Virus record (IMG/VR): IMGVR_UViG_3300037485_000837
Span: 1-28,876 of that record
Reading direction: 5' to 3' (one strand)
DNA: 28,876 nt
Source: a virus
Shown here in pieces: positions 2,524-22,800 of this stretch (within the stretch, counting starts at the first letter, position 1; each line of letters starts with the position of its first letter). Position numbers and translations under genes: made by a program. A model generated the notes under the pieces. It was not told where the DNA came from, did not search any database, and worked only from the letters and a program-made list of their open reading frames with translations.

Positions 2524-2796
2524 ATGAATAATATGAAAACAGAAAAACATACAAACCGTTACGGTGATGAATACACATTCACATTACAGGGTGATGGTAA
2601 TATAAAGTGGGAAGGAGAGTTTAAGTATTGTAGATATGGGTTTGATAAAGACCCTGATGTTAAAACTTTCGTTGATCCTTCAGGAGGTAAATTCATAGCA
2701 GTAGGAAGTACTGAAATGGGTATGAGAGTAATTGGGTTTGAGAAGATAGATACTGGTTATCTTATATTGACTGAGCCTATAAATAAGAAAGAATGA
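2524..2796 (+). CDS. Small hypothetical protein
   Basis: Ninety residues, unrecognised. The sequence alternates charged and hydrophobic residues with many Gly and aromatic residues (EYTFTLQGDGNIKWEGEF near the start), suggesting a small beta-rich soluble protein; there is no signal peptide, membrane segment or cysteine-rich motif. The first ATG at 2524 follows an A-rich stretch with no Shine-Dalgarno sequence, as usual in Bacteroidota; a second ATG three codons on (2533) is an equally good start. Its stop overlaps the start of the next gene in an ATGA arrangement, implying translational coupling with the phosphatase-like gene. It lies just after the candidate structured RNA, which could act as its leader. 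Confidence 0.7.
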   Translation: MNNMKTEKHTNRYGDEYTFTLQGDGNIKWEGEFKYCRYGFDKDPDVKTFVDPSGGKFIAVGSTEMGMRVIGFEKIDTGYLILTEPINKKE

Positions 2797-3191
2797 TAAA
2801 AGGAACAAGAAATCAACTATATAATGTAAGTAATCCTTATCAAGGAAATACTAAGAAAGTATTATGTGTATGTTCAGCAGGATTATTGAGATCAGCTACA
2901 TTACAGAACTTTCTAATTAAGAATTACGGCTATAATGTACGTAACTGTGGAACTGACGCTCATCATGCATTGATACCTATATCAGAAGTATTGTGTATAT
3001 GGGCAGATGAGATAGTATTTGTAAAAGAACTTAATTATCAAGATGTAAAAAAAGACCTTGAGGATATCGGTATTGATGAGGAGAAGATAAAGATACTTGA
3101 TATCCCAGATGCTTATGGGTTCAACGATCCTGAGTTACTAAAGATAATTGAAAAGCAATATAAAGCAACAATTAATAGTTTCCCAAAATAA
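2793..3191 (+). CDS. Low-molecular-weight protein tyrosine phosphatase-like protein
   Basis: 132 residues, close to the usual ~150 of the LMW-PTP fold. A hydrophobic strand KVLCV leads into the phosphate-binding loop CSAGLLRS (residues 28-35), which fits the Cys-X5-Arg-Ser catalytic signature. GTDAHHALIPIS follows, where the family has its post-loop helix, and a late IPDAYGFNDPEL segment offers Asp residues in the place of the general acid. Members hydrolyse phosphotyrosine through a phospho-cysteine intermediate; arsenate reductases of the same fold are an alternative. The loop departs from the common CxGNxCRS form, lacking Asn and the second Cys, so the substrate may differ. The start overlaps the preceding stop by four bases and the next gene follows after six bases, so it is part of a small plus-strand operon. 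The phage role is unknown; acting on a host phosphoprotein is only an inference. Confidence 0.75.
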   Translation: MIKGTRNQLYNVSNPYQGNTKKVLCVCSAGLLRSATLQNFLIKNYGYNVRNCGTDAHHALIPISEVLCIWADEIVFVKELNYQDVKKDLEDIGIDEEKIKILDIPDAYGFNDPELLKIIEKQYKATINSFPK

Positions 3192-3813: not shown

Positions 3814-6800
3814 TTAGTCTATAAAATACTTCAATCTATCTTCAGGGTAGAACCAATCTTCCACAGTAGATACCAAAGGGAACATATCTCTTGCCCATAT
3901 ATAAGCTTTAAGATCTCCTTTGTGTCTACCTCTCTCATAACGTGGTATGAGATCCTCATCATCAATAAGCCAACCTGTAGGGTCAATGATCTTACCTATA
4001 CTCATGATATGACTTATCTGATTGACGGCAGCAGCAGGAGAGTTGATGATCTTCAATTGTTCAAGTGTTCCCAATAACGGAAGGTAGAATGCCATTTCAG
4101 TGAAATATCTATTAGCTTGATAAGCTGACATATTAGCTCCCCAAGCAGCTATCTCATCATCATCGTCAATTGAATCTGCAAGTATTTCAAGTAGGATACC
4201 TGCAACCAATGCTGTCATCATCATAGCTACCTCACCAAGTGCTCTTGCTAAGTTTGCTTTCTCAAAATCGTGTAATTTGGAGTAACGGTCTTTAGCTGAT
4301 GCCATAGTGAATTGTCCTTCTCTAAGTTCTTTGAATAGTTGATATATGAATTTTGATGCTGTTCTATAGAATCCTTCAACGTCAGTTTCCATTGACCAGT
4401 TATGATACCTTCCTTTCCAACGTCTGTTGATACCGGGCATCATCCACTTACGATATAGACCCACTATACGCCCCATAGCATATCGTTGATAAATAGCCTT
4501 ATCTGCACTGTTGTAGATACCATGTAGAGATTGATTGATAGATGCTACACGTATTGAAAACGCTGTTATGTCTTCATTCGTGAAATCACTGCCATCAAGA
4601 TTCTTGATACCGTCTTTCAGCTTTAGCTTATGGTCTTCTACATCAAATGCTTCATACAGAGGAATCTGTTCTCCCTTGTCATTAAGTACTTTTAGTTTAT
4701 GTGCCAATGCTACTCCCAAACGAGACTGCATTTGATGTTCTCCCATATGGTTAATAAAGAACAATGCTGACAGAGTGAACATTCTACCGAAACGACCTCT
4801 ATCTGCATTCACACGTGACATACGGTTATCATGATCTTGAAGAAGGTCGAATCGTTCAATGAACAATCGTAGTTTATTCTCTGTACGTAATTTACCTATA
4901 TCCTGCATAAGGCTAGGAACACCTTCTTTAGGATCCCAATATACCTTATCAGCATACATTACATCATCAATTCCTACATGCTGATTTGCGAATGATTCCT
5001 GTCTGATAAGTGAGTTACCGAGTATCACGTTATTGAATCCTGCAAATGCGTTAAGAGCAAGTGTGCTTAACGCAGAATATCTGTTGAGAGCATCTGCCAC
5101 TTTGCCCATATCTACAGTACCTAACAACTCTTCTTTCTTCCACTCACCATATAATCTCATGTCCATTACCTCACGATACATTCTATATGGATTACCCCCT
5201 TCAGTGATGACCTCTTCACTACCTTCTTTCTTTATTTTACGTACTCTAAGGATATCAGCAGTCATTTCCGATACATCTATAATGGCACTCAATGCAGAGT
5301 GTCTATTTGCAGTATCAGCAAATGCTATCATGGAAGCTGTTGCATCCAATGACAATTCATTCATATCTTCAAGTTTTCTCATGAAGAAGAGAGGCACTTG
5401 TTGTATCTTACGTCCATTTGCGTCAAGCCCTAACACACCTCTTTCGGTTTCATCTGCACGTACTGTAAATGCATCTTTCACCATCTGTGATAATACTTGA
5501 GAGGGATTCGTCTTCATTCTCTCAAGATCATCCTTACGTATCTGAGGCATGAGGGTACTATTACGGTATTCAGCAGACATATGAGAAACCTTCTTATCTC
5601 TCATTGCAACCCATGCATCATAATATGCTTTTCTTACAGGATCTTTCATGAGTTTCACAAACGTGTCATTCCCAAACTTGGATATTTTAGGTTGTGCAAA
5701 TTCTCTACGATAACTTATTACAGTCTTATTATCTAAAGTGGTTTCGACCATACGCTCACTTTTCCAATCACTTAAAAGAGTTTCTGCCCGTTTTACTTTT
5801 GGAGCAAGTGCTATATCCTGTTTAATGAGTTCAGCTATCCACTTATTGCCATATGTAGTTTTAAAGTGCTTTATTCTCTCTCTATCTTTCTTAAGAGTGA
5901 ATATCCTATTGTAAATAGCAGTTTCCTTTTGTTCAAGGATACTTTGCCACTTAGGATTCTCTTCAAAGTTTTCAGTAAAGAATTTAGCTATTGCGGTATT
6001 ATAGTCAAGAAGTTTCTTTTTACTCATACTACTTCTCTCAAGAACCCTTTGATTATGAGCATCATATTTAGTGTAAGCGTCTGTACCTTTAGATTCAAGG
6101 TAGGCAAGTTTATTTTTAAAGAACTCAAGAGCAGCTTTTTTATCTCTTACTTTTGTTTTCTTTATATTTCCATGAAAATATTCTTTTGCATTGGTAACTT
6201 TTGTGTCAGCATCTGCTGCTATCTCTGGTTTTCTTTTATCACTTTCAATTTCTTGAATAGCAAGCTTTAGTTCCTTTTTTCTTTCCTCAATATCATCAAT
6301 TTCAGGATCTGGTGTCAACTCAAATCTCTTACGTAAATTGGTAAAGAATTCATTTATTGCCTTTTCTACTTTAGAAGTATTTATCTTCGATATGTAATTA
6401 CCTGTAGGAACACCATTTTCATCAAGTTCATACATCCATTCAGTATTGAGCATACCGTTCTCTCGTGCTACTTCGTGAAAGTTGATAATGGTCTTAGCAT
6501 CATCCTCTGTTTGAAGATTAGCTGCTCCTTCTGCATTCTTATGTGTCCTATCCATAAGACCTATGATGTCATCAGCACTTTCAGCAGCACTGTTCACCCA
6601 CATGGAAATTGTCCACATATCATTATGTGTAGACTTGATATTAGCTTCTATATCAGCTAATTTAGCATTTCTTTCCTCTTCTGTACGAAAGAAAGGATCT
6701 TTCATGATAAGTCCTTTAGCATGATCAAGTAATAGGATACCTGCATAATCCTTATATGTCTGCTGCATAGCATCCATACCTGAACGTATATTCTGTAATG

Positions 6801-8706
6801 ATCTCATTATCAGATCCACCTGTTCAGAAGGATTACCTTCTCTATCTATGGTAGCTTTATGTATCGCCACTTGAGTTGTGAGACTTACAATAGAATCCTC
6901 ATACATTGAGATATACTTGTTCATATCACGTAACACTTCAATGAATCCTATGGTATCACCATCCAATTCACCTGCCGCATAATCATTTCTAAGTCTGTTT
7001 ATTTCTTTAAGAATATGATCAGAACCCTCTTCAACGTGAGCTATGTACTTGACGATACCTGAAGTTACACGCTTCTTATTGTAAGCTTCCAACATCTCAC
7101 CATATATCTTCTGTTCACGTTCGATAAGACTCTCAATACCCTGTCGTTTAACGTCCTGAACTCTATTATATATGAGTTTCATACTACTATCAAGTTCGTT
7201 ACCAAGAGCATTCAATAGCTTACTATTCTCAAATTTCTTTCTGAACTCTTCGTACTTATCGTCTTTGGGTTTTTTAGCTTTTTTACTACTTGGCCTTTGC
7301 ATAAAGATACCTTTACCCTCTTGAATACCCTCTTTTATCTGACCGGTATCTCCCCTCATTACCTGATTGACAATATCATTCAAGGCATTTTCAATGCGTA
7401 ATTCCTTAGCAGGATTGCTTTTCTTGAAGAACTGTAAGAATGCATTCCATATAAGCTCTAATCTTCTCTTCCAAATAGGACGTTCATCAAGTATCTCATC
7501 ACCTAATCGTTTCTTAAGGATCTTTCCGAGTATTTCAAGACGTACCATCTCCATATCACCATCATATTCCTCAATATAGGCTTCCGAATGATTTTTCCAC
7601 TCCGTAGTACTCTCAATGACAGATAGTGCGTCAATCACACGTTTATCATCTTTGAGAGCATACAGTACGAAGTGACTCAATTCCTCAAGACTTGTATACT
7701 TATCTGCACGACCTTTATCAATTGCAATTACTCCTCTCAACATATCAGCTATACCAACTGCATGTAAAGGTTTTCCATAGGTCATCTCATACCATTGAGC
7801 ATATTCATCATATGCTTCAATACGTATTCCCAATTGAGACATAATGCCTTTTACAGCACCTTCTATCTTAGGATCTTGCGGAAGAAACTCTTCTTCCTGT
7901 TGTTGAATGAATACCTTGGTATTAAGATCAGGAGTTATTCTTATCTCATTCCAAGTATTACCATACTCATCAGTAACTTGCTTTACATTCTCTTTACCAA
8001 ACTGTTTTTCTAATATATTACCTACTTTAATTTCATAAAATGCTTCAATAGGTTTTAGTTTCTCTATACCTTGTGATTTAAGTTCTTGTTTTTGTTTCTC
8101 TAGCCTTACTATATTTTTTTCAGCTTTTTTTAGCTTATTTTCTAAACCATCCTCAAGCATAGCATCTGTATAATTACTATCAAAAGGTGTAACTTCATAT
8201 AAATTTGTAGGGTTTTCTAAAAAGTCTCTATTGTTTTTTAGTTCTTTATCAATTTTATTAATTTCATCAGCAATAGTTTCATGTCCCTCTATCTTAGCAG
8301 CGGTTTCACCTTTAGGAAATAAAACTTTTTCATAACCTTTCTTAGCACTATCTTGAATAATAGATTTAACAAAGAATGTTACCCAATTATTATCACGACC
8401 TAATAAATGTAAAAACTGATTTTGATTACCAAAGTTTTTATAATTTTGGTTAGTTGCTAAGTTATAATAAGTAATTGCATCTTTATCTGAAATAAAACCT
8501 GATTCATTAGAAGAATTTAAGAACCATCCATCGTCTGCTTTTTCAATTTTATTATTTTTATAATAAAATACTTCTGGTAGATCTTTAATAGAATATTCTT
8601 CTTTAGCTAAAGATTGTCCTTTTAAAAACTGTGGATTTACAATCTTATTAATAAATTCTTCTTTTGAAGAATATATTACTCCTTCATATATATATTTACA
8701 AGCCAT
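3814..8706 (-). CDS. Giant virion/cargo-type protein with polyvalent-type N-terminal half-domain and degenerate zincin
   Basis: 1630 residues, the last gene of the minus-strand virion block. Residues 96-260 match the second half of a domain found in phage and mobile-element polyvalent proteins: NQFLHLL, W108, GYEKVLFPKGE (124-134), FYE (223-225), then ITPD (257-260). A coiled-coil stretch lies at about 185-215. At 341-345 EELSH, in a context like the HEAFH metallopeptidase of the 4360-residue neighbour, looks like a zincin fold that has lost its first His, so probably inactive. The middle is long, charged and helical. Toward the C-terminus there are hydrophobic segments, notably ~1491-1509 (ALVAGILLEIL region), consistent with a membrane-inserting ejected protein. 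The ATG overlaps the stop of the endonuclease gene (TAATG), and a TAG sits two codons upstream, fixing the start. The first ~600 bases are far more AT-rich than the rest. The cargo role is by analogy with crAss-like phages. Confidence 0.82.
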   Translation of the reverse strand: MACKYIYEGVIYSSKEEFINKIVNPQFLKGQSLAKEEYSIKDLPEVFYYKNNKIEKADDGWFLNSSNESGFISDKDAITYYNLATNQNYKNFGNQNQFLHLLGRDNNWVTFFVKSIIQDSAKKGYEKVLFPKGETAAKIEGHETIADEINKIDKELKNNRDFLENPTNLYEVTPFDSNYTDAMLEDGLENKLKKAEKNIVRLEKQKQELKSQGIEKLKPIEAFYEIKVGNILEKQFGKENVKQVTDEYGNTWNEIRITPDLNTKVFIQQQEEEFLPQDPKIEGAVKGIMSQLGIRIEAYDEYAQWYEMTYGKPLHAVGIADMLRGVIAIDKGRADKYTSLEELSHFVLYALKDDKRVIDALSVIESTTEWKNHSEAYIEEYDGDMEMVRLEILGKILKKRLGDEILDERPIWKRRLELIWNAFLQFFKKSNPAKELRIENALNDIVNQVMRGDTGQIKEGIQEGKGIFMQRPSSKKAKKPKDDKYEEFRKKFENSKLLNALGNELDSSMKLIYNRVQDVKRQGIESLIEREQKIYGEMLEAYNKKRVTSGIVKYIAHVEEGSDHILKEINRLRNDYAAGELDGDTIGFIEVLRDMNKYISMYEDSIVSLTTQVAIHKATIDREGNPSEQVDLIMRSLQNIRSGMDAMQQTYKDYAGILLLDHAKGLIMKDPFFRTEEERNAKLADIEANIKSTHNDMWTISMWVNSAAESADDIIGLMDRTHKNAEGAANLQTEDDAKTIINFHEVARENGMLNTEWMYELDENGVPTGNYISKINTSKVEKAINEFFTNLRKRFELTPDPEIDDIEERKKELKLAIQEIESDKRKPEIAADADTKVTNAKEYFHGNIKKTKVRDKKAALEFFKNKLAYLESKGTDAYTKYDAHNQRVLERSSMSKKKLLDYNTAIAKFFTENFEENPKWQSILEQKETAIYNRIFTLKKDRERIKHFKTTYGNKWIAELIKQDIALAPKVKRAETLLSDWKSERMVETTLDNKTVISYRREFAQPKISKFGNDTFVKLMKDPVRKAYYDAWVAMRDKKVSHMSAEYRNSTLMPQIRKDDLERMKTNPSQVLSQMVKDAFTVRADETERGVLGLDANGRKIQQVPLFFMRKLEDMNELSLDATASMIAFADTANRHSALSAIIDVSEMTADILRVRKIKKEGSEEVITEGGNPYRMYREVMDMRLYGEWKKEELLGTVDMGKVADALNRYSALSTLALNAFAGFNNVILGNSLIRQESFANQHVGIDDVMYADKVYWDPKEGVPSLMQDIGKLRTENKLRLFIERFDLLQDHDNRMSRVNADRGRFGRMFTLSALFFINHMGEHQMQSRLGVALAHKLKVLNDKGEQIPLYEAFDVEDHKLKLKDGIKNLDGSDFTNEDITAFSIRVASINQSLHGIYNSADKAIYQRYAMGRIVGLYRKWMMPGINRRWKGRYHNWSMETDVEGFYRTASKFIYQLFKELREGQFTMASAKDRYSKLHDFEKANLARALGEVAMMMTALVAGILLEILADSIDDDDEIAAWGANMSAYQANRYFTEMAFYLPLLGTLEQLKIINSPAAAVNQISHIMSIGKIIDPTGWLIDDEDLIPRYERGRHKGDLKAYIWARDMFPLVSTVEDWFYPEDRLKYFID

Positions 8707-9425
8707 TATCTATTGTGTTTTTTAAAACTTCTATTTATTTGTTGAACTCCCGATTTAGAAATACCATATAAAGGAGCAATTTCTTTATACATTTTACCCT
8801 GCTTTATAAGTTCAATTATTTCACTTCTTTGTTCTTCTGTTAATTTACCTTTTGAAGATACTTTATTAGTTCTTCTTATTAAATGCTTATCTTCTTCTTG
8901 TACAATATAATTAGGTATATTTTTCCAGCTTCTTCCTGCTTTAATCTCAGAAATAGTTGTAATTTTAACATTATACCTTTCAGCAATTTCTTTTAAGGAA
9001 ATATTAAAAGCTAACATTTTCTTAATATCATATATCTCTTCAATAGATATTTTAGAATTAGTTTGCCCCTCATTAAAAAGTTTAATCCTTGTTTTTGACA
9101 TTTTATCTATAGTTGAAGAATCTAACTCTACACAATCTCCACCTGTAGTTAAATTTAAACCTTTAGTATTATTTCCTCTAAAACTATCAAACTCTTTAAC
9201 ATACTTTTTTTCTAAAGCATTTAATTCTTCTCTTGTAAAATCTCCTTTTTCAATAATTTCAAATTTATGATTTTGTACACCATGTCTAAGAAAAGAATTA
9301 TATAGTAAAACTTGAGCAGAGCATCTAAGTTCTTTATATCTATTAAGTCTATATTCAACATCTTTAGATTGTCCAATATAGATTTTACCTGTTGGTGATG
9401 TTATTTTATAAATTCCTGATTTCAT
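8706..9425 (-). CDS. GIY-YIG homing endonuclease
   Basis: 239 residues from the chosen start. The N-terminal nuclease domain shows GIY at 4-6, YIG at 16-18 (spacing typical of the family), the catalytic Arg in VEYRLNRY (26) and the metal-binding Glu in LEKKY (72), followed by GLNLTTGGD. The rest is a DNA-binding tail with two helix-turn-helix-like units, ISLKEIAERYNVKITTISEI and MYKEIAPLYGISKSGVQQ. Such enzymes cut an intron-less or gene-less allele and are copied into it by repair. An upstream Met at 9458 keeps the frame open, but it overlaps the -7 box of the gene's own promoter, so the Met at 9425 is the better start. It sits between two genes that appear to be halves of one, and its stop overlaps the next start. 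Its GC content is about 22% in a counted 60-base sample, well below the flanking virion genes. Confidence 0.93.
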   Translation of the reverse strand: MKSGIYKITSPTGKIYIGQSKDVEYRLNRYKELRCSAQVLLYNSFLRHGVQNHKFEIIEKGDFTREELNALEKKYVKEFDSFRGNNTKGLNLTTGGDCVELDSSTIDKMSKTRIKLFNEGQTNSKISIEEIYDIKKMLAFNISLKEIAERYNVKITTISEIKAGRSWKNIPNYIVQEEDKHLIRRTNKVSSKGKLTEEQRSEIIELIKQGKMYKEIAPLYGISKSGVQQINRSFKKHNR

Positions 9426-9444
9426 ATTTAGTATATTAGAAGTA

Positions 9445-9476
9445 CAAAGATACAACATTAATTTGTAATTTCCAAA
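9445..9476 (-). promoter_or_regulatory. Bacteroides-type promoter of the GIY-YIG gene
   Basis: On the minus strand TTTG (9476-9473) is followed after 20 bases by TATCTTTG (9452-9445), an exact fit to the Bacteroides primary-sigma consensus TTTG (-33) and TAnnTTTG (-7). The -33 box begins two bases after the stop of the 456-residue gene, and the start codon at 9425 would fall some 13 bases beyond the expected transcription start. This gives the endonuclease transcription independent of the virion operon and supports a Bacteroidota host. Confidence 0.75.
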
Positions 9477-9478
9477 TT

Positions 9479-10849
9479 TTAATCACATTTAATTTGTAAT
9501 TCTCCACTCTTTTTTAGTTCATTAATAATTTCATCAGGGCTTTTTATATCACGACTTTTTTGGAAAATGTCGCTCTGTACTTCTAATATTCTACGAGTTT
9601 TAGTAGGAACACCTTTATTAATATTTTTAACAGTATTATAGGCTTCTATTACCCATTCATCTTTTAATGATGCTTGATTTCCATTTTCATCTTTAGCGAT
9701 ACCACCTACAACATACCATTTACCATCTTTTCTTTTTTCATATACTATTTGTTCCATAGTATCAGGTTCAGAAAAAATAAATCTATTTTCAACTATTTGC
9801 TCTACTTTAGTAACATCTGCAATATTATTTTGTAAAGATTTATCATCACTTCTAAACCATCCAATACCTTTATCTGTAGCAAATTGAGCATGACCTTTAA
9901 TACTAGGTGTAATTAAAGGTGTGGAAAACTCTTGCTCTGTATAATTAGTACCACCGGGTACTGTTAAATTAGCGTAGTATTGAGTAGGTTTAGTATTTTC
10001 CATATCAGCAATCTGTTTTTTACTTTTTTCAGTAAGTACAGGTCGCATATCAATTATATTACCATCTTCATCTAACACTTCTTCATAATCAAATTCAGGT
10101 TCTATTGGTTCAGGTTCAAAATTACCATCACCTCTATCTACCATTTTATAATCTTTACTTTTTTCTTTAGCAGTATTAACTTCAACAGTATAACTATAAT
10201 TACTGGCAAGTTCTGTAATAATCTGCTCTCTTGTATTATCACTTATTTTATCATTAAGTTGATCTTGCTTAAATAGCTGTTTATAGTTAGCAAATCCGCC
10301 TAATTCATTAAGTGTCTTATCAAGTGTCCATCCTACTTTTTGAGCTTTACTGAACATTTGAACTGCTCTGTCAGACATTAAGATATCAACAGGTTTGAGT
10401 GTATAATCTACTTGTTTAAAGATACTTCTTCCATCAGTAGTTTTCAGAATTCTCATCTGATTACCAGACTTTTTATGGTACTTTCCCGGTATAGGATGTA
10501 ATTTAAAAAGTTCTTTACGTACCTGAAGATTTACCTTATTGATCTTTTGGGTTGCTCTACCAAGATCTCCAAATTCTTTCATCCAATATGAATTGGAGAT
10601 CTTCTTTTGAGAAAATGATTCTTTTGTATGACTGACAATGAATTCAGCAAGTTCATCTACAGATAATTTACGTAACTCACGTGCTTCCTTATACCAACCT
10701 ATCTCAGATAGAAGCTTAGTTCCTGTAGGAACTATTTCATTGTTACGCCTCCAAGATTCTGTTGCGTCCTGTTCGTTATTATCAAGATTATGTAATAATA
10801 CCTTCCACTCTATAGTATGTTTAGGTGGGCATTTTTGTCCTTCTTCCAT
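9479..10849 (-). CDS. Virion/cargo-type protein with the first half of a polyvalent-type domain
   Basis: 456 residues. The N-terminal ~200 are helical and charged, unrecognised. Residues 291-434 look like the first half of a domain seen in phage polyvalent proteins: YYANLTVPGGTNYTE (GGTNY at 299-303), GH at 319-320, GWFRSDD (330-336) and ILEVQSDIFQKSRD (421-434). In that family the EIQSDWHQKGR-like motif is normally followed by a W-K-A-G-W-TGE-like block; here that block is in the separate 1630-residue protein, and the protein stops 22 residues after the motif. The start overlaps the stop of the giant gene (TAATG), so the two are translationally coupled. A homing-endonuclease gene follows directly. 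I take this as the upstream part of a split ancestral gene. The C-terminal half has a lower GC content than the N-terminal half. The biochemical function is unknown. Confidence 0.8.
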   Translation of the reverse strand: MEEGQKCPPKHTIEWKVLLHNLDNNEQDATESWRRNNEIVPTGTKLLSEIGWYKEARELRKLSVDELAEFIVSHTKESFSQKKISNSYWMKEFGDLGRATQKINKVNLQVRKELFKLHPIPGKYHKKSGNQMRILKTTDGRSIFKQVDYTLKPVDILMSDRAVQMFSKAQKVGWTLDKTLNELGGFANYKQLFKQDQLNDKISDNTREQIITELASNYSYTVEVNTAKEKSKDYKMVDRGDGNFEPEPIEPEFDYEEVLDEDGNIIDMRPVLTEKSKKQIADMENTKPTQYYANLTVPGGTNYTEQEFSTPLITPSIKGHAQFATDKGIGWFRSDDKSLQNNIADVTKVEQIVENRFIFSEPDTMEQIVYEKRKDGKWYVVGGIAKDENGNQASLKDEWVIEAYNTVKNINKGVPTKTRRILEVQSDIFQKSRDIKSPDEIINELKKSGELQIKCD

Positions 10850-13800
10850 TATACTCCTTTACAACGTTTAACTATTTCTTCTGCTTCATTTGGTTTTACT
10901 TCAATAAGGTCTTTGAATTCCTCATTATCAGTAAACCCTTCAGCTTCTTTCTGTATACCTGCAATTGCGTCTATCGTCAGTTCCTGTATCTTCAATGCAC
11001 TCTTTATTATACTACCATACATGCTCGCATCAAATGATGATGTATTAGGATTACTCAATCTACCTAACATATCCGCAACCACTCTCAATGTTTTTTTACG
11101 GTCTTCAGGAGTAATAGTTTCATTTTTATTGATAATAGGAGCAGCAGGTTTTACTATCTTTTCAGGGGTCAATACTTTAATATATTTATATATACTCTGT
11201 ATCTGATGTGTCAATCTATTAAGGTCAAACTCAATAAACTGATTGTTTATACCCAAAGGAGGCAGTACTTTATACAGAGCATTATTAGCACCATCGTTCT
11301 TTACATACTTAAGTAGTACAGTAGCAGTTCTCTTACCTTGCTTTATAGGAGACTTGATGTATTTCACAATTTCTCCTTGCTTACCTGTTATAGGGTCATT
11401 TGACGCCATATTTACAAATTTAGAAGGTACTGCCAAATGAAATTCCCCATCCAATTGTCTGGTGGATATCTCCTTATTCTCCCGCGCATCCAAGAATGGT
11501 ACACTCTTGAGTTTTCTATAACCGTTACGTACTATCTGCTCAAATAGACCTTCCATCTCATGTGGATCTGTTATTCTATCGAACATAGGTTTCATTCTCT
11601 CACTACCTTTCTGATATTCTCTATAGCTGTAATCAAGGTTAGTATTATGTAGAGTGAACATGAAGTCCATAGGTACGAGATCTGTAAAACTATTGTAATT
11701 GAAAGTATGTCCTGAACTGAAGAATGCATATTTAGCAAGATCTACTCCGAGTATTCTCTCTTCTTTAACTTCAGAATATATCATACGTTTCCAAGCATTC
11801 TTGATAGCTTCCATGTGTATCTCATCAAGACCGTTCCTATTGAATGCAATATACTTGAAAGGTATTCTATCTTTCTTTTTATTACTATTCTCATCAGTAC
11901 GTGTCTGAAACTGTTCCAATATTACATTGTATGGACTATCAGGATTCGCATTTCTATACTTACTCAATCTCTTAGGAGTTGTAGTAATTACACGTTCCAC
12001 TTCAGAAAATGGTTTACCTTTCACTTTAATATAAGACTCTTCACCGATCATCATATTGAAATCGGTATGTTGGAATGTCTTATAACCAGTTACAAATGCA
12101 GTCATTATATAACGGTATATTGAGTTTATCTCTTCTGCATCCAATTCACCATTTCTCTTGTACAGTGCAAATCTCTCTACTATTTTATCGAATATAGGTT
12201 TTTCATAAGGAAGATCAGCTATATCAAGAATGATATTCTTTCCCTGAGTTGTCTTTTCTATAAATTCTCCTTGAGACTCTTGTGTTACAGGAGCTTCTTG
12301 TGTACTATTCCAATCATATTTATTAATTAGATAATCTAAAGCAGTAGCATGAGAGGGTTCTCCAAGTTCTTTATAGTAAAGAATAGATTTATTTTTAAGT
12401 GTTCCCGATTTAATCTCTTCTCTAATCCAATTAGCTCTTTTATCTTGTGAGCTAATTACCCAATCAATGTATTTTTCAACAGCTTCTTTAACAGTTTCTA
12501 CTTTAATTAACCCTTGAGTTTTTCCAGTAGGAGCATGACTAAATGGATTACCAAAATGCTCTTCTGTATTAGGTATTCTTGTAGATATAATACCTCTTGC
12601 ATTAAAAGCATTAGTCATGTTCTTTAAGTCTGACCAAGGTTTTATTACTACATTACCAGTAGCTGTCTTATCTCCTAATTGCGAATAGATATCAACTTGT
12701 TGTTCTTCTACTGTTGGTTGTTCTACTACTTCTTGAGGAGTTTCAACTATTTCATCAGATACATTATCAATCTCTGTAAAATCTATCCATCCCATATTGA
12801 CATGAAGATTCTCTGATGCTCTTGACATACCTACATAACCTAATGACTGTCTCTCTGTAGACATCTGCTCACCATTTTCAAGTATCTTAATATCAGATTT
12901 TATGATGGTATTCGCATCAAAGAATACATTCTTAGTAGTTCTTCCCTGTGATTTATGAATAGTTATTGCATGTCCATAATCAATACCTTTTTCAAGAATG
13001 AATTTGGTCTTTTCGCTACCATAAAGAGTTCGATGTTCATTAGATGGATTTGATTTATCATATTTTTCCATCTTATTGGTCTTATGATTATATATCATAT
13101 CCTGATCAATATCCAACTTTGCTAATCTTTGAGCCAGATTATCTATTGCACTATAATAACCTGACCATCTTTTTGCTCTTTTAGCTTCTTCTAAAGCTGA
13201 GTATAATTGTGCAAATTGGCTACTTAAATATTTATTGTTCAGGTTAAGTTCCTTATCAGTAAGATCATTTTCTAACGCTCCTTCAGAATTAAGTGGTAAG
13301 TATATTGTACGGGAAACTTCAGGTACTTTACGGAATCCTTTTTCTCTAAGATCATTAAGTCTTTCGGAACGTAAGTTTAACTGATAACCTGTATAAAAAT
13401 CTGTCTCTACTTTATTTATGTTCTGAATAGTAAATCCTACACTATTAGCAAGATTACCTCTTTCTATCTGTTTAGAAGCATATCCAAGATATCCCATCAC
13501 AATATCACCTACCTGTGGTGGACCTGTTCTTTTAAAGATACGCTCACGAATAAGCTTATTCATTTCAGATACACTATTATTGGTATACCCTATAAAATCA
13601 GTATTCTCAGGATCACTTGTTACTGCATCTCTGAGTTGTATAAGAAAATCTTTTCTATTATCATAGAATTTAAGATTTTCAGTATTCTCCTTGGTTTTAA
13701 ATAACTTGAATGTCTTAGAGTCTCTTACATTCTGTAGAACATTTTTGATATTATTGTTACTTGTTCTATGGATAATATCCAAGTTAACCGAAGGATTTTC

Positions 13801-16800
13801 AGTAAAAGCGGTACTGATACTCTTTTCTTTAGGATTTGTAGCAGCTACTTCTGGTATCTGTTTTTTATCTCCTAAGAAGATTATCTTATATCCAAGATCT
13901 CCGATCTCTTTAAGACGTTGATAATCCTTTTGTTGAAGCATAGATACTTCATCTACCACTATATAGTTACTAAATCCTAATGCCTCCTCTGCTTTCTTAG
14001 AAAGTATTGCTTTTCCTGTCTTTTGATTAGTAGCCATACTACTTGCTACTGTCATAGGAAGATTGGTATTACCAGTTTTCATAGTAGCAACTGCAAGCTC
14101 TACAGTAGCAGCGTGGGTAGGTGCTAAATACAGCATATTAGAACTTAGGTATTTACTTAGATAACCTATAATAGAAGTTTTACCAGTACCGGCTGCACCT
14201 TGAAGAACAAATCTATCCTCATTACTTTTAGTAAAATCTATCAGCTTCTTAAGTGCGTTTTCCTGATCACTTGATAACTTGAATTCAGTGTTTATAGTCT
14301 TACCTTTATATTCAAAGATCGGTTTACCTTCTTCAAGGGATTTAGTAGGGGTCTGTACAACAGGTTTTACAAAGACTTTTTCAGTGACTTCATTAGAGGG
14401 CATCTCAATACCATACTTATAGAAACTCTCTACAAATGGTACTACTCCACTCTCAATGAACTTATTGAATCCTGTGATATGTTCTCCATCAGCAGCCTTA
14501 GCATCTCTCCAAGTTCTCTTAGATACAATGATATTTGCGTACATAGGTCCTGCTGCTTTACCTACAGCATCGAAACGCATACCGTTCATTGTCTTAGTAA
14601 GTGCTTGTGTCTGCTTGAAGGTACTCCTCATCAATTGATAGATACTGAAGTTTGTTTTCAATGTATCAATACTATCAGGATTCTTAAAGGTATCAACTAT
14701 GGTATTCTTAGTAACCCTTACTTCAGTACCACTCTTCTCAAACGCTGTTAGTGCTTTTGTACCTTCTGCTTTAATGATAGATTGTCGCACTTCTTCCATA
14801 AGAGTATCCAACACCTTATCAATAGCTACAACAGACTTACCTTCTTTAGCAAGCTCCTTACTGAATCTTTTAGCAGCAGGAGATGCTACCATCAACATTA
14901 CAGCATTAGGATCATGTCCTACACGTATCATAGTGGCTATAAGGTCACTTGTAGTCGTAGTGATATTAAGGAATGATGCCATTGGATCCTTAGCATTATC
15001 AACATAAGCAGCAATGAATTGTGCTAATGATGAAGATTTAAATTTCTTAAAAATATCAAACTTATCGGAAAGATCTTTCAGTACTTTTCCATTGAATGCT
15101 ATTCCTTTAGGTAATTTGAAATCTCCTTCAGTTACCAATGCATGATGTACGTTCTGATTAGCACCTTGACCGATAAGTGCAGCACCTGTCATATTACGAT
15201 TGAATATCTCTCTCTGTGTAGATGGCAACATCATATTGAGGGTTTCTGCAACATTACCCTCAAGCGCAAGTACTTCCTTCTTAGCTTCTTCAAGCAGTTT
15301 ATAGTTACCCGGAGTAAGCTGCTTTTTCATAGTATCTGAATGAGATAGTATAGCATATTTGATATCCAGTATAAGGTTATCTCTACTCTCCTTAGTGGTC
15401 ATTCCAGATTCTATCTTAACAAGACCATCTTTGGTATTCTCAAAGTTATACATCATACCGAACAGCTTATCAATATCAAAGTCAAGACCTGCAATTGTAG
15501 TAACTTCATCAGGCATGATAATCTGCCCACCTACTCCTTCAAGATAACCTATTACCTTAATATGGAACATTGAATATTTACCCTCTGTAGGGATACGATA
15601 GAATACTCCCATCTTCAGTTCATCAGGAACTTTAGAGACATCCAAATAACCATCTTCACCTACATAGTGATCATACATTGCTCTTGCATGTGCAGGCATT
15701 AATACTTCTACTTCTTTGATGTAAGAATTACCATTCTCATCCTCTGCGATCACAAGTTCAGGTTTACGAAGTCCTGCTGCATTTATCTTCTCATAACCAT
15801 AGGAAGAAGCATTAAAGAGAGATACTCCATATGCTTTCTGTTTAGTTACATTGTTCTTAAAGTATGATGACAGAATAGCTTCTACCTGATATACTATATG
15901 AGCATCCCATAAAGGTAATTTAGTTTCTGTCCTGTTCTTATCTACCCAATCAAGTGCATTGAGCATATCTTCACCCATCTGTCTCTCAACAACTTCTTTT
16001 CTAAGTGCTGTGACTATACCATTGAGATCAGGTGTACCATCAGGCTTATAGAATATCTTCTTAAGTTCATCAAAAGACTCTTTGATATTAAGGTTGATGG
16101 CTTCCTGATATTGTCTGAATACTTCAGTGCCTATCATAGGTTTACCTCCTACATTATATGTAAGAGATTTATCCATATCCTGAGTGATAAGCTTACGATC
16201 TTGTGTACCTACATTATTCTCACTGTCTCTATAGTGTTCAGGAGTCTCCTGTTGAATAGCATATTTACTATTCTCCATCCTATGAACAGTCTTGTTATTG
16301 ATATCATCAATGCTATCAAGTCTATTGAACTGTCCTACCTTTACAGCAGAACCGAATATCACTGCATCCACAAGTCGTTTATTCTCATCGAATACTACAG
16401 TACCATCTTTCTTGAACTCGTAACCCATCTTCTCAAGTACCTTTTGAAGTTTAGGATTACCTTTAGCCATTCGAGGAGTAAGTAATGCCTCACTGTTCTT
16501 TATCTGTGTAGGCACTACATGCACATCTCCGTTCTCTCCTGTAATGAATCTATGAGTATAGTTGAATGGTTTCACTACATTCATCATCTCTCCTTTAGGA
16601 TTCTTAGGCGGCTTACCTAATATCATCTCATCATATTGCTCCTGTAGCTCTTCAGTCCATTTAGCAGTTCCAAGATATATCTCTCTCATTCTGAAGAGGT
16701 CAATGACTGTAGCAGCATCTGTATTATTCAAGCCTCCCTTACTAGGATCTTTAGGATCATCTTCTACTCCATAAGCTATGCGTATCCACTTATTCTCCTC

Positions 16801-19800
16801 TCCGGGAAATGTCTTATTGATAAGATCTTTATGCTCTGTGCGTATCTTCTGCTTGTCTACTTCGGTAGGGTCAGTAACATATGCAACATAATAATTAGGA
16901 CGTACGATTACACTCTTACCATTCTTCAGTAGAAACTCATTTTTAGTATTCACTGAGATATGATTCTGTGGAGAGTGTATCTGTTTGATACGTTTGTAAA
17001 CATCCACAAAGTCAACATTACCATCTTTAGATTTATACTGAGCAACATCACCTCCGAAGAGATACATTGTCTGTATATTCATATACATACGATTCATCAG
17101 GTAATCATTCAATCTACCATCCTTAAGACCATCAAGAACATTCTTACCTAACATTCCTGTGTTATCCTCATAACTTATGATACCGTTCTCATCTTTTACT
17201 TCTGTGAGAATATCATCGGTAAAGAGTTTTTGCTTCTCAAGTTTAAGGTGTTCTCTTAAAAGATTCTCTACTTCTTTTCTGAAGTTATCTCCATCGAGAT
17301 TCTTTCCATTCAATCCTGCAAATATCTGATACTTAAGACCATTCTTAATTAGATTATATGGAATATCCTTAGTATCACCTTTATCTACACGTTTCTGTAA
17401 CCATTCGATACGATCTTTTTCCTGTTGTGCAGTCTGAATGAGTTTCTCAAGAATAATAGTACTACTCTCTTTCTTCCAATACATGAAAGCTGTATTACTA
17501 CTATCAGAAAGTATAGGTATCATATAATATGCCCAAGAATCCTCACGGTCTTCTTTAGGATTCATCCAGTAATTGATCTGCAATGCTTCCAACTGTTGTG
17601 GAGACATATTAGCATATTCAATAGGATTGTCCTGACCTTCCATATCGTATGACGTGAAATATGCAATAGCAGTTTTTTCAGCAGCTTTAAGATCTTTCAA
17701 TTCTTCCATTATAGGAGAATTCTTGTAGAAAGCAGTTCTCATATAAGCATCAATGAATGCTACTCTATCAGGTCCTGTAAGATTAAGCATATGATCTAAC
17801 ATGAATCTATTATCCACATTGGTCATTATCTGCTTGTCTCCACTTCTGAATATAGGTTTATATGTATCTTCTTTACCATTAGCAATGGTCTTAGACATAT
17901 CTCTAAGTGCATAGAATTTACTGTCTTTACCATAAAAAGGATTTTTTCCGTCAACCATTGTGGTCAGTACAGCCTCAAATCCACTTTTACCAATGAATGT
18001 CTTAAAGGATTTTTTACCCTCAATTGTCTCTGGAAATACTTTATATAAGGTATCCTTAAGTACAGGCATATTGATTTTCTTCAATATATCAAACAATGTT
18101 TCTACATGTTCTTCTTTAAGAGGAGCATTTTTATCAAGCTTATTTGTTTCAGTTATGAGTACCTTAAGAGTATCCAAATGTTCTTGGGGAACGGTTGATG
18201 TCTCTGTACTACCATCAAACATCGGAGAATTATAGAAACTATCTTTCCAACTCTCTACAATATCCTTAGATAGATTCTCTCTATTGGCTATGAATGAAAG
18301 CGTTTTGATGCTTTGATTTCCCTCTGCATCATATGTCTTTTCACCCGTTACTCCAATGAAAGCTACTTTACGCTTATTACCCATGTTCCTCCACATCTCA
18401 ACAGATATCTTAGAATCATCTTCCAGTATCTGAATCACTTGTTGGTATGAAGGGAACATCTCAGCAACCTTACTGAGTTTATCATTCATTTCACTCTCAT
18501 TACGTGCATCTACAAGACTATTGGATAGCTTTGCATACACCTTCATAGGACTTTCATATATAGGGTATCCTGCAACATCTCTATCTTTCTGTACAGTTGC
18601 GAATGCCATCTTAGCACGTTCAGAAAACTTACTATAGTGATCTCTAAAGACATCTACCTGCCATCCTTCAAGGATACCTTCATCAGAAGCAAGTTCATCA
18701 TGTTCAACATCTTCATCAGATACTATTCTGTCAATTGATATTCCAAGACCGAATCTTACTGAAAGATCCTGTGCTGCACGAGGTAATATTGATGAGAATA
18801 CATATCCACCATTTGAGGTCTGAGTAGCAAACTTGGACACTACATCTGTAATGTATTTTGCACCATCTTCTGAATATTTAGCACCATTCTTTTTAAAGTC
18901 AGCTTGAATTATCTGATATGCAGTAGCATATAATCCTTGAATAGTAAATCGTGAACGTACTTGTTTATCATATTCTCTAAGAGTAGCCAATTCAACTACT
19001 GTTTCTTTAGGAAGTTTCTTTTCTCTACGGTAGAGGTCTTCTAATACTTTTCTCCCTGCTACTGATAAGACTCCTTTTTTACTCACCCGTAGCATTTCTC
19101 TTACAGCCTCTCCTTTAGAAAGATTCTTAGATAGTTGTAAGTGACTTCTGAATATTTCAATTCCTTTTCCTATAACTACTGAGTTGATAGTATTAATAGC
19201 CATTGCTTCTCCCCTTGGAGTAAGTCCTTCAGAACTATATGTTCTACTGAAACGTGTTATATCCTTAGTAAATGTTATCTTCTGCTTGAAAGGATTATAT
19301 AGACCCTTATCAATACGATACATATAATCGTCTATGGTAGCATCACCTTTGATACCTATTCTCTCAGCAGCTATCTGTATAAGATGGTATAGTTTCTTAA
19401 AGAAACTCAATACTTTTGCTGATAGACCAGTTTTCATTTTACCTTGAGTAAGTTTATACTCCATAAAATGATCTGCCATATTCTCCTCCTTATCAATAGG
19501 ATTTTTACCTTTGAATTCTTTCAGTAGAATACCTCTCTCATTTTCATTCAGTAGTATATGAAATACAGCATGAAATGCCTCATGGTACACTGTACCTTCC
19601 TTAGCATGAGAAGCTATGTAAACACTACCGTTTTTGAACAATCCCCATAATTCAACTCCTCCATTATCAGAGATCTTCTTAAGATCATCCAATACACTTA
19701 TTGGAACATTAGGATAATTCTCTTTGAACCATGCTAATTCTTCTTCACGATTCCATACTTTATAGTCTCCTTTAACTGCTTTGCGGGACATTTTAACATC

Positions 19801-22800
19801 TCCACCTTCTTCAGTATCTCTACCAGTATCAAAGTCATCATCTTCAAAGAAAAATCCATCTACAGCCCCCTCTTCATTTACCTCTTCACCTATATTAGTT
19901 ACTATATCTTCAGGTATTGAGATGTCATCTTCTGTAACAACTTCTTTCGCTAATATAGCATTTATTTCCTTTGTTTTGTCAGTAAACATCTCCACTTCTC
20001 TTGGAGATAATTGCTCACCTATTTTTACTTTCTCTGCAAGTGATTGTATTCTCTCTTTTGCAACAACGCCATTATCTATGAACTGATTATATTCAACTTG
20101 AGAAATTACATCTTCAATTATAGTTTCTTCAACTACAGGTTCAATTGGTTCAGTTTTGACAACAATTGGTTTTTCTTTCTTAACTACAGTAGCTTTCTCT
20201 TTAGTCTTACTCTCAACAACTCTCTTACCTTTCTTACCTACCTTGAACTCATCAAGATTAAGCTTTGCCTGCGCAGCAAGTACAGTAGGCTGTCCTACTG
20301 CAAGATTAGTGGTTATCCATCTGTTCTCTGTGATATATTCATTATATGTCTTTCCTCCTTTATATTTCTCAGGACTGTTCAAACGATCATGTCTGATACG
20401 CATGATGAGATTAGAGAATATATCTTTCATTTCATCAGCAGACCGATAAGTAGTAATAGAACTTTCATCACCTGATAGTGAAATGGTCTGAAAAGTACCA
20501 TCTGTCATATATGTAAGTTGTACAGAAAGATATTCCTGTAGTCTCTCATTGACATTTGCAATATATGCTACTGAAGCCTCTGAGTTTATCATGTTCTCCT
20601 TCAATGTCCTGTTGGAGAACATCTCATCAACTATTGCATTTACTTCTTTAGTAGCAAGACCTATTTCTCTTAATTTAGCTGTATACAGTCCAATAGGAAC
20701 ATATTTACCTGATGCAGTTTGAACATGTAGTACAGTTTTACCTCCCATACCCATGAAACCTTCCATACCTCCTTGATGTACATCAGATCTGTCAATACCG
20801 AATTGTTCTGCTCCAAGATTATCAAGTATCTCAGGTGTACCTTTCAAAGTATTGATAACTCCTAAATATAGTGGTCCATCATAGTTACTAAGGTTATTAC
20901 GTTTCTGATTTGATATATTGAAGTGACCATTGGTTCTACCTCCTAAAGTAATACCGAAGTCTTTCTCTACTATATAAGAACCTTCTTTTTGTCCAGAAGC
21001 TGACCATTCAGTATATATCTGATTACGTAGTTCTTTTATTACATCAAAGTTAGGAGATCCTTTACTTGTCTTTGAAGTTCCTCTGATCTTACCTAATCGT
21101 AACTTTTTACCATCATACTCAATGAAAGGTATTATTGTGATATAATCAGCAGGTTCTCCTTCTGTAGGAGAATACTTATCATCCAAAGGAATTTCAAAGA
21201 ATATCCTCTGTCCATATAAGTTTGAATTAGGGTCATTAAGAACATCAAATTCCCAATCTTGAAGAAAAGGGGCATCTACTTCTCTATCTCCATCAACGAT
21301 GGTTCTTACATTAGTATTTGATAATATAGGATCACCATCTTCATCACGTAGTATATATACGTCACCTTCCTTACCCTCTTCAACATTGATATATCCTTCT
21401 GCAATTGCTGAAGAAATTGACATTTTTACAGGCCTTCCCTCTTTACCGAATATGGTAATTGTATTACCATTACGTGCAAACATAAGATATTGATGATTCT
21501 GTACGATTGCTCTATCTGCTGTAGAAGATTGAGTCTCATCCTGTGGCATAAGATCCATATACTCCTCATGTGCAGCTTTCTCATTGATAGCTTCTGTAGG
21601 AGTTATCATCGCGTCTGTCTGTGCTTTCACAGCATTCGCAGCCATTTCAGAGTAGTATGCATTGAAAGCATCTCTGAATTTACTATTTGATCTATATTGT
21701 GTAAGGAAAGAGTTTATATCCTTTACTTTAGAAATATCAATACCTGTCTTCTCTGCTACTTCTTTAAGCTCCTTATGTAACAGTGGAGTTGAAGAATATC
21801 TACTTGCAGCATCTGCGTCAATACTATCCTCTGTAGGTATAGGAGCATTCTTCTCTGCTTCCTTAGCTAATTTACTGAGTTTAGCATTAGCTTCTTTGGA
21901 TACAGTAGGAGAGGCAACAATTCTATTTATGAGATCAACGGAAGTATCATTATTGATAGCTCCCAATGCACGAGACTTGAATAACTCCTCATCATCTTTT
22001 TTAACAGCAGCTTGTCCTTCAGAAGTTTGCAGACTTACTAACTCTATATTAGCAAGTTCCATCTCAAGTTCGTTACGTGCTTCTTGAGCAGCTACTTTAG
22101 TTACTTTAGAATCTACCGATGTTGGATTTTCCTTTTGACTTTTAACATCTTTAAGTTCCTCAAGTTCTTTAGTTACACGTGTTATTTCCTTATCAATATG
22201 ATCTAAGAACTTCTGTCCATAACTCATCTTCTTGAATTCAGGAGTATCATGAGCCATTTTATTAGCTTCCAGTGTAGCCTTTTGAGCTTCAAGTTTCCTC
22301 TTATTGAATTCTTGTGGTGTCAATTGAGTACCTGCTTCTACTCGTGCATCAGATTCTTCTTTAGCAAGTTTTTGACGTAGTTTATCTTTAGCACGTTTAG
22401 TGAACTTAAGGTCTAATTCCTTTTTAAGTAAAGTAGGATCCTTACGTGTATCATCTGATATTTCAAGGTATTGTTCTTGGTAGAATGCAAGATCTTTCTG
22501 AATATCTTCATTACGTTCTCTGAAATCCTTTATCTGTTCAGGAGTCATCTGCCACTTTGAAGATAATTCTTCATCAGTAGATTCTCCCATCTTCTTATAG
22601 GTATCAATGGTATCCTGTAATTTACCTTCAGATGCCTGTTGGTAAGCATGTGAACTGAATTGAGCATCATTTATCTTATGTGCAGTTACAAGATCTCCTT
22701 CATCAATTGCTTTCTGTTTAGCAACATCCAATTGAGCATTCTTAGCAAGTTTTTCCTGTATCTTATTGATACCTGCACCTGCACCAGTGAATACTCCACC

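Follow-up and report, generated by a model that had tools for sequence, protein, structure and literature searches.

A GIY-YIG homing cassette between two halves of a crAss-like virion protein, and paired cysteines at the breaks of the virion RNA polymerase chain

The interaction domains of the split nrdA product of Aeromonas phage Aeh1 are said, going by the title of a 2011 paper by Crona et al., to derive from a mobile element. In this system, the homing gene mobE divides nrdA into two open reading frames (ORFs) whose products reassemble, the split gene being rejoined by element-derived tails (PMC2988022; PMC3267527). Endonuclease-associated fission with assembled products is likewise described for the T4 topoisomerase genes 60/39 (mobA) and the DNA polymerase gene 43 of phage 25, although neither a recurrent tag cassette nor a cysteine rule is described for them (PMC2988022). 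Here, we analyze a related arrangement in the viral record IMGVR_UViG_3300037485_000837, whose entire 28,876 bases constitute the window of this study and in which a GIY-YIG homing endonuclease gene separates two parts of a protein resembling gp49 of phage crAss001. As in Aeh1, a homing gene makes two ORFs, whose products, judging by their sequences, may also reassemble. Whereas the Aeh1 case involves an HNH nuclease, a metabolic enzyme and a single phage, the present one combines a GIY-YIG nuclease with a cargo protein of the virion, and it features multiple insertion sites as well as short terminal peptides, here called tags, each of which contains a cysteine. The rejoining of split genes by element-derived tails is already known; the pattern of cysteines at the breaks may, provisionally, be the larger new finding.

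The phage of the window is crAss-like, because its 1630-residue protein is similar to crAss001 gp49 and its 4360-residue protein carries DFDID, the catalytic motif of the crAss RNA polymerase (RNAP). Residues 233-1628 of the former are 28-30% identical to gp49 and its relatives, and the homology to gp49 and gp50, together with the presence of DFDID, places these proteins in the virion RNAP chain of the Crassvirales. The 4360-, 456- and 1630-residue ORFs of the window, the last two of which constitute the split protein, have their homologs in gp47, gp49 and gp50 of crAss001 and in the phi14:2 RNAP (PDB 6vr4). The initial annotation had spoken of a virion gene, which agrees with this homology, since gp49 was detected in crAss001 virions, as were gp47 and gp50 (PMC10172136). 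That protein boundaries in the crAss RNAP block vary has been described before and attributed to unknown mechanisms of expression (PMC7886860), whereas a limited literature search retrieved no report of terminal cysteines, so that their novelty is provisional. We consider it probable that a homing cassette split the gp49-like protein and that its halves are rejoined by tag docking and a disulfide, as one case of a cysteine rule that extends along the chain. The split parts all lie on the minus strand, as follows.

10849..23931, minus strand: 4360-residue ORF, a fused gp47-like and gp50-like virion RNAP (DFDID) whose sole cysteine, C4357, lies near the C-terminal end
10861..10863, minus strand: codon of Cys4357, the C-terminal junction cysteine of the 4360-residue piece (..EEIVKRCKGV, then stop)
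9479..10849, minus strand: 456-residue ORF, the N-terminal half of the split gp49-like protein, with C7 and C455 as its only cysteines
10829..10831, minus strand: codon of Cys7, the N-terminal junction cysteine opposite the 4360-residue piece
9482..9547, minus strand: tail tag, residues 435-456 of the 456-residue protein (IKSPDEIINELKKSGELQIKCD), with no counterpart in intact relatives
9485..9487, minus strand: codon of Cys455 within the tail tag
9445..9476, minus strand: Bacteroidetes-type promoter-like element TTTG-N20-TATCTTTG, its spacing identical in four cassettes
8706..9458, minus strand: GIY-YIG homing endonuclease gene with C-terminal helix-turn-helix (HTH) modules, likely true start at 9425
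8635..8706, minus strand: head tag, residues 1-24 of the 1630-residue protein (MACKYIYEGVIYSSKEEFINKIVN), its start overlapping the nuclease stop
8698..8700, minus strand: codon of Cys3 in the head tag, the sole cysteine of the 1630-residue protein
8494..8634, minus strand: variable linker, residues 25-71 of the 1630-residue protein, without counterpart in intact relatives
3814..8706, minus strand: 1630-residue ORF, the C-terminal half of the split domain (residues ~72-271) and the remainder of the gp49-like protein

Relatives were collected through the N-terminus of the 1630-residue protein and the RNAP motif; P0001 as a query retrieved none by tblastn against the phage collection or by pattern search. 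In 50-odd related viral loci, 52 ORFs match the 456-residue protein and the 1630-residue N-terminus in one frame and colinearly, about 46 of which are unbroken after removal of duplicates and of three that are broken further downstream; these unbroken ORFs contain no nuclease gene. Matches to the 456-residue protein, whose C-terminus reads ...LEVQSDIFQKSRD-IKSPDEIINELKKSGELQIKCD before the stop, end at residue 434, just past EVQSDIFQKSRD, and those to the 1630-residue protein begin at residues 72-96, so that residues 435-456 and 1-~71 are additions at the break. As both ORFs match single ORFs colinearly, and without any gap in locus L002, where residue 434 of the former abuts residue 74 of the latter, the domain was originally continuous and the break is derived. 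The arrangement is that of a split gene with tails of the Aeh1 NrdA kind: two ORFs that retain both halves, with extra tails in the split versions only. The proposal of the initial annotation that the GIY-YIG gene separates two halves of one domain is thus borne out by the intact ORFs, and no nuclease-free relative was seen that is split at the window's site with the same ends. Its assignment of the domain to the polyvalent family found no confirmation beyond a resemblance, as the intact relatives gave no Pfam match and the two halves no PHROG match. An AF2 model of the intact domain (pLDDT 61, pTM 0.34) was too weak for judging co-folding, and a Foldseek search returned nothing usable.

The nuclease matches the Pfam GIY-YIG family (1.7e-7) and a PHROG homing endonuclease family (5e-17) and probably starts at M12 (9425), where its homologs begin. 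The catalytic Tyr, Tyr, Arg and Glu are invariant in eight cassette nucleases, which were too diverse for one search alignment and were therefore treated as sub-families, and the gene of the window is evidently catalytically intact. It shares its catalytic motif, an HTH/NUMOD-like C-terminus and a position between or inside phage genes with the freestanding homing endonucleases of the GIY-YIG type known from phages (PHROG 7168; seg genes), but relatives outside the RNAP chain lack the cysteine-bearing tail and head. Translation of the nuclease and the downstream half is probably coupled, because the nuclease stop codon and the ATG of the 1630-residue ORF overlap (TAATG). Together with the unbroken relatives and the intact nuclease, this overlap supports the suggestion that a homing gene split one gene into two coupled ORFs. 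The promoter claimed for the nuclease gene found partial support: a Bacteroidetes-type box precedes the gene, whereas a scan for E. coli-type promoters gave matches at chance level. TTTG-N20-TATCTTTG at 9476-9445 is the sole match in the window, with 0.63 expected by chance, and the box TATCTTTGTA, 20 nt from (T/C)TTG, also lies ahead of the nuclease in three other cassettes. We take this box to be the Bacteroidetes promoter consensus.

Introns and inteins abound in Crassvirales (PMC7886860), and RNA or protein splicing might excise the nuclease and join the halves directly, as the intron-like split of cr116 at DFD|VDK could suggest. We regard such excision as very improbable at the window's site, in line with the initial annotation: an Rfam scan of the window at the gathering threshold detected no group I or II intron, the Pfam and PHROG scan of the nuclease returned no Hint/intein family, and stops and restarts flank the insert, with stop, start and tag peptides conserved on both sides. 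In the cr116_1 locus (L080, 8750-9591), the break in gp50 falls exactly within the catalytic motif (DFD / VDKEY) and holds a separate gene, an arrangement that is intron-like rather than of the tag type and gave no Rfam match.

The tags recur. The tail tag, a 22-residue C-terminal helix-strand-Cys element on the N-terminal half, and the head tag, a ~24-residue N-terminal MAC-hairpin-helix element on the C-terminal half, are both absent from intact relatives, but tail, nuclease and head are also present in L007 (two cassettes), L028, L037, L050, L055, L056, L059 and L068. In split relatives, the upstream ORFs end in helix-strand-Cys and the downstream ORFs begin with MAC-Y-x-Y-x-G-x-x-Y-S/T-x-E-E-F. 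The insertion sites differ, lying after EVQSD..RD in the window, L028, L037 and L059, between SIIQxTAK and KILFP in L050, L055 and L056, before EVQSD and further upstream in L007, and elsewhere in the chain for the first cassette of L056 and for L068. Heads are 44-69% identical to that of the window in most cassettes, compared with 27-57% for the nucleases. A hidden Markov model of the head matched 24 heads, all at protein N-termini, with no credible internal match save in L101, where a contig end truncates a copy of a known head, and AF2 predicts a hairpin and a helix (pLDDT ~77 over the first 20 residues). The ratio of nonsynonymous to synonymous polymorphism (pN/pS) is 0.55 in the tags versus 1.28 in the codons just behind the head, which are non-homologous between cassettes; the tags are thus under constraint. 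Related GIY-YIG genes at about 78 other loci have no Cys tail/head pair, the sole exception being L183, a locus that likewise represents a gp50|gp49 junction of a crAss phage, and the crAss001 GIY-YIG gene adjoining the large terminase also lacks tags. The tags are therefore associated with the protein chain rather than with the nuclease family. Two further peculiarities concern individual cassettes: in L007 (162-3065), two tagged GIY-YIG cassettes in tandem cut one gene into three pieces, and in L037, from 6001 onward, a P-loop kinase-like stretch (GTSGSGKST), not found in the window, directly follows the head tag.

Beyond the cassettes, breaks in the gp47-gp50-gp49 chain look as if they followed a Crassvirales-wide rule, with a cysteine at both facing ends. 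Annotated members of the Steigviridae, Suoliviridae and Intestiviridae have such cysteines along the chain; in crAss001, gp47 ends in ..ALRCNS, gp50 begins with MSKRC.. and ends in ..DKICGANTLYEL, each followed by the stop, and gp49 begins with MAKKC... Scoring covered the annotated set plus another 80 viral loci retrieved with the RNAP motif, which together gave 70 deduplicated gp50|gp49 junctions; an end counted as positive if a cysteine lay within 14 residues of it. Both ends were positive at 63 of the 70 junctions and the upstream end at 68, counts that are not phylogenetically independent, yet the cut positions vary by lineage and fused lineages lack the cysteines. The upstream cysteine occupied positions -1 to -4 in 65/68 cases and the downstream one positions +3 to +7 in 62/63. 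Since cysteine makes up 0.16% of the residues in the large ORFs, fewer than 1% of ends should by chance have one among their last four positions. On the N-terminal side of the catalytic ORF, both facing ends had a cysteine in 26 loci, neither had one in 18 with gp47 fused, the N-terminal end alone had one in 10 (the neighbor mostly not being gp47) and the upstream end alone in 2. The rule still holds where gp47 lies on the other strand. To our knowledge, no cysteine rule applies to the split nrdA of Aeh1.

Outside the junction ends, the chain is almost devoid of cysteine. The three pieces of the window total 6,446 residues and contain four cysteines, each located at one of the two breaks (4357 of 4360; 7 and 455 of 456; 3 of 1630). 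Similarly, crAss001 gp47 and gp49 have one each (2339 of 2341 and 5, respectively), and the phi14:2 RNAP (PDB 6vr4) has only two, at positions 3 and 2179 of 2180. A DNA-level motif as the source of these cysteines was ruled out, as both codons are used (152 TGT, 24 TGC) and gp47 keeps its cysteine when located away from gp50. Terminal cysteines could also serve as packaging or targeting signals of the cargo instead of linking pieces, which would suit a cargo in which each new piece needs a signal of its own. Such a role is improbable, and a general packaging signal was ruled out: the N-terminus of the first piece and the C-terminus of the last have no cysteine, while both ends at a cut do, and no terminal cysteine is present in gp45 or gp46, which are also cargo proteins. 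Only 2 of 69 outer 3' chain ends have one, and both are followed by a further MxC start and represent further junctions. Most apparent exceptions were explained on inspection, by TAG recoding in L079 and L082, further splitting of the gene in L103 and L104, an extended N-terminus in L142 (cysteine at position 20) and another MxC start behind the gene in L134 and L149. Between two Cys-ended chain genes, four loci have a gene that, by eye, is ferritin-like (L114 2343-2816, L116 3837-4319, L121 3741-4223, L094 13103-13594).

These observations are consistent with a model in which a cassette made up of tail tag, stop codon, promoter of the Bacteroidetes type, GIY-YIG endonuclease and head tag inserted itself into a variable linker within one domain of the gp49-like cargo protein. 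The nuclease would spread the cassette, and the tags may move along with it. Both halves would be translated as separate polypeptides, after which the tail (helix and strand) would dock with the head (hairpin and helix), and the single cysteine of each tag would pair in a disulfide that rejoins the halves. The earlier guess that the halves may still assemble gains support from the conservation of the tags with their cysteines and from the pattern seen across Crassvirales. Docking might also be non-covalent, with tail and head forming a small interface at which the cysteines pack or bind metal. This alternative, for which the complementary predicted elements of tail and head and the precedent of split NrdA in phage Aeh1 (PMC2988022) can be cited, is rather unlikely, given that natural junctions not of the cassette type have ends that differ greatly in sequence, with almost only the cysteine in common, and that cysteines are nearly absent from the rest of the chain.

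For crAss001, inter-subunit disulfides are present in other parts of the virion, and the cargo is argued to pass a <50 Å channel partly unfolded (PMC10172136). A chain stapled end to end could be packaged and ejected with its order and stoichiometry preserved, and ordered threading through the narrow tail channel is plausibly the reason for a continuous stapled cargo; lineages with fused ORFs would achieve the same end by a peptide bond. It is tempting to speculate, although we hold this broader proposal only tentatively and can see it failing about as readily as standing, that the virion RNAPs of Crassvirales are disulfide-linked polypeptide trains, with each break stapled by one cysteine per facing end and the pieces packaged and ejected in order, and that homing cassettes bring a ready-made staple of tail and head, which makes the break of an essential virion protein harmless.

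Several points weigh against rejoining by a mobile, disulfide-forming tag pair. Some junctions that lack a nuclease (L063, L065, L066, L070, L106, L111) have the same heads and Cys tails, and cassettes at the same site (window and L028) hold different GIY-YIG lineages; for both reasons, the tags need not travel with the nuclease. These findings would also fit an ordinary gene fission that created the tagged junction first, with tags that are the phage's own and endonucleases that settled later, a scenario compatible with a disulfide link. We regard it as credible but somewhat doubtful, because the unbroken relatives found for the window's site all lack both tags and nuclease, while the split loci L028, L037 and L059 have both, and because the promoter spacing is common to four cassettes. 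Furthermore, the case for the disulfide and for tag-tag contact is indirect, paired cysteines at facing ends being what was observed for the former. Oxidation would have to take place despite a reducing bacterial cytosol and anaerobic gut hosts, which puts its site in question. Finally, L132 (6041-12748) has the sole gp50 without a cysteine at its apparent ends; its downstream region is fragmented and perhaps recoded or intron-rich.

If true, rejoining by docked tags and a disulfide would explain how Crassvirales, which are among the most abundant gut viruses, tolerate highly variable breaks in their giant virion RNAP. It predicts exact cysteine pairs for cultured phages, perhaps visible in existing mass spectra of reduced and non-reduced virions, and would show how a homing gene can sit within an essential coding region, unspliced, and do no harm. 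The small natural tail and head tags might also be of use as protein-joining tools.

Two other features of the window are apparent. The 4360-residue ORF (10849-23931, minus strand) contains a Pif1/Dda/RecD-like helicase domain at residues 3218-3711, downstream of DFDID. An ORF on the plus strand (2793-3191), starting ...KKVLCVCSAGLLRSATLQ.., resembles, by eye, a low-molecular-weight protein tyrosine phosphatase with its C-x5-R-S motif.

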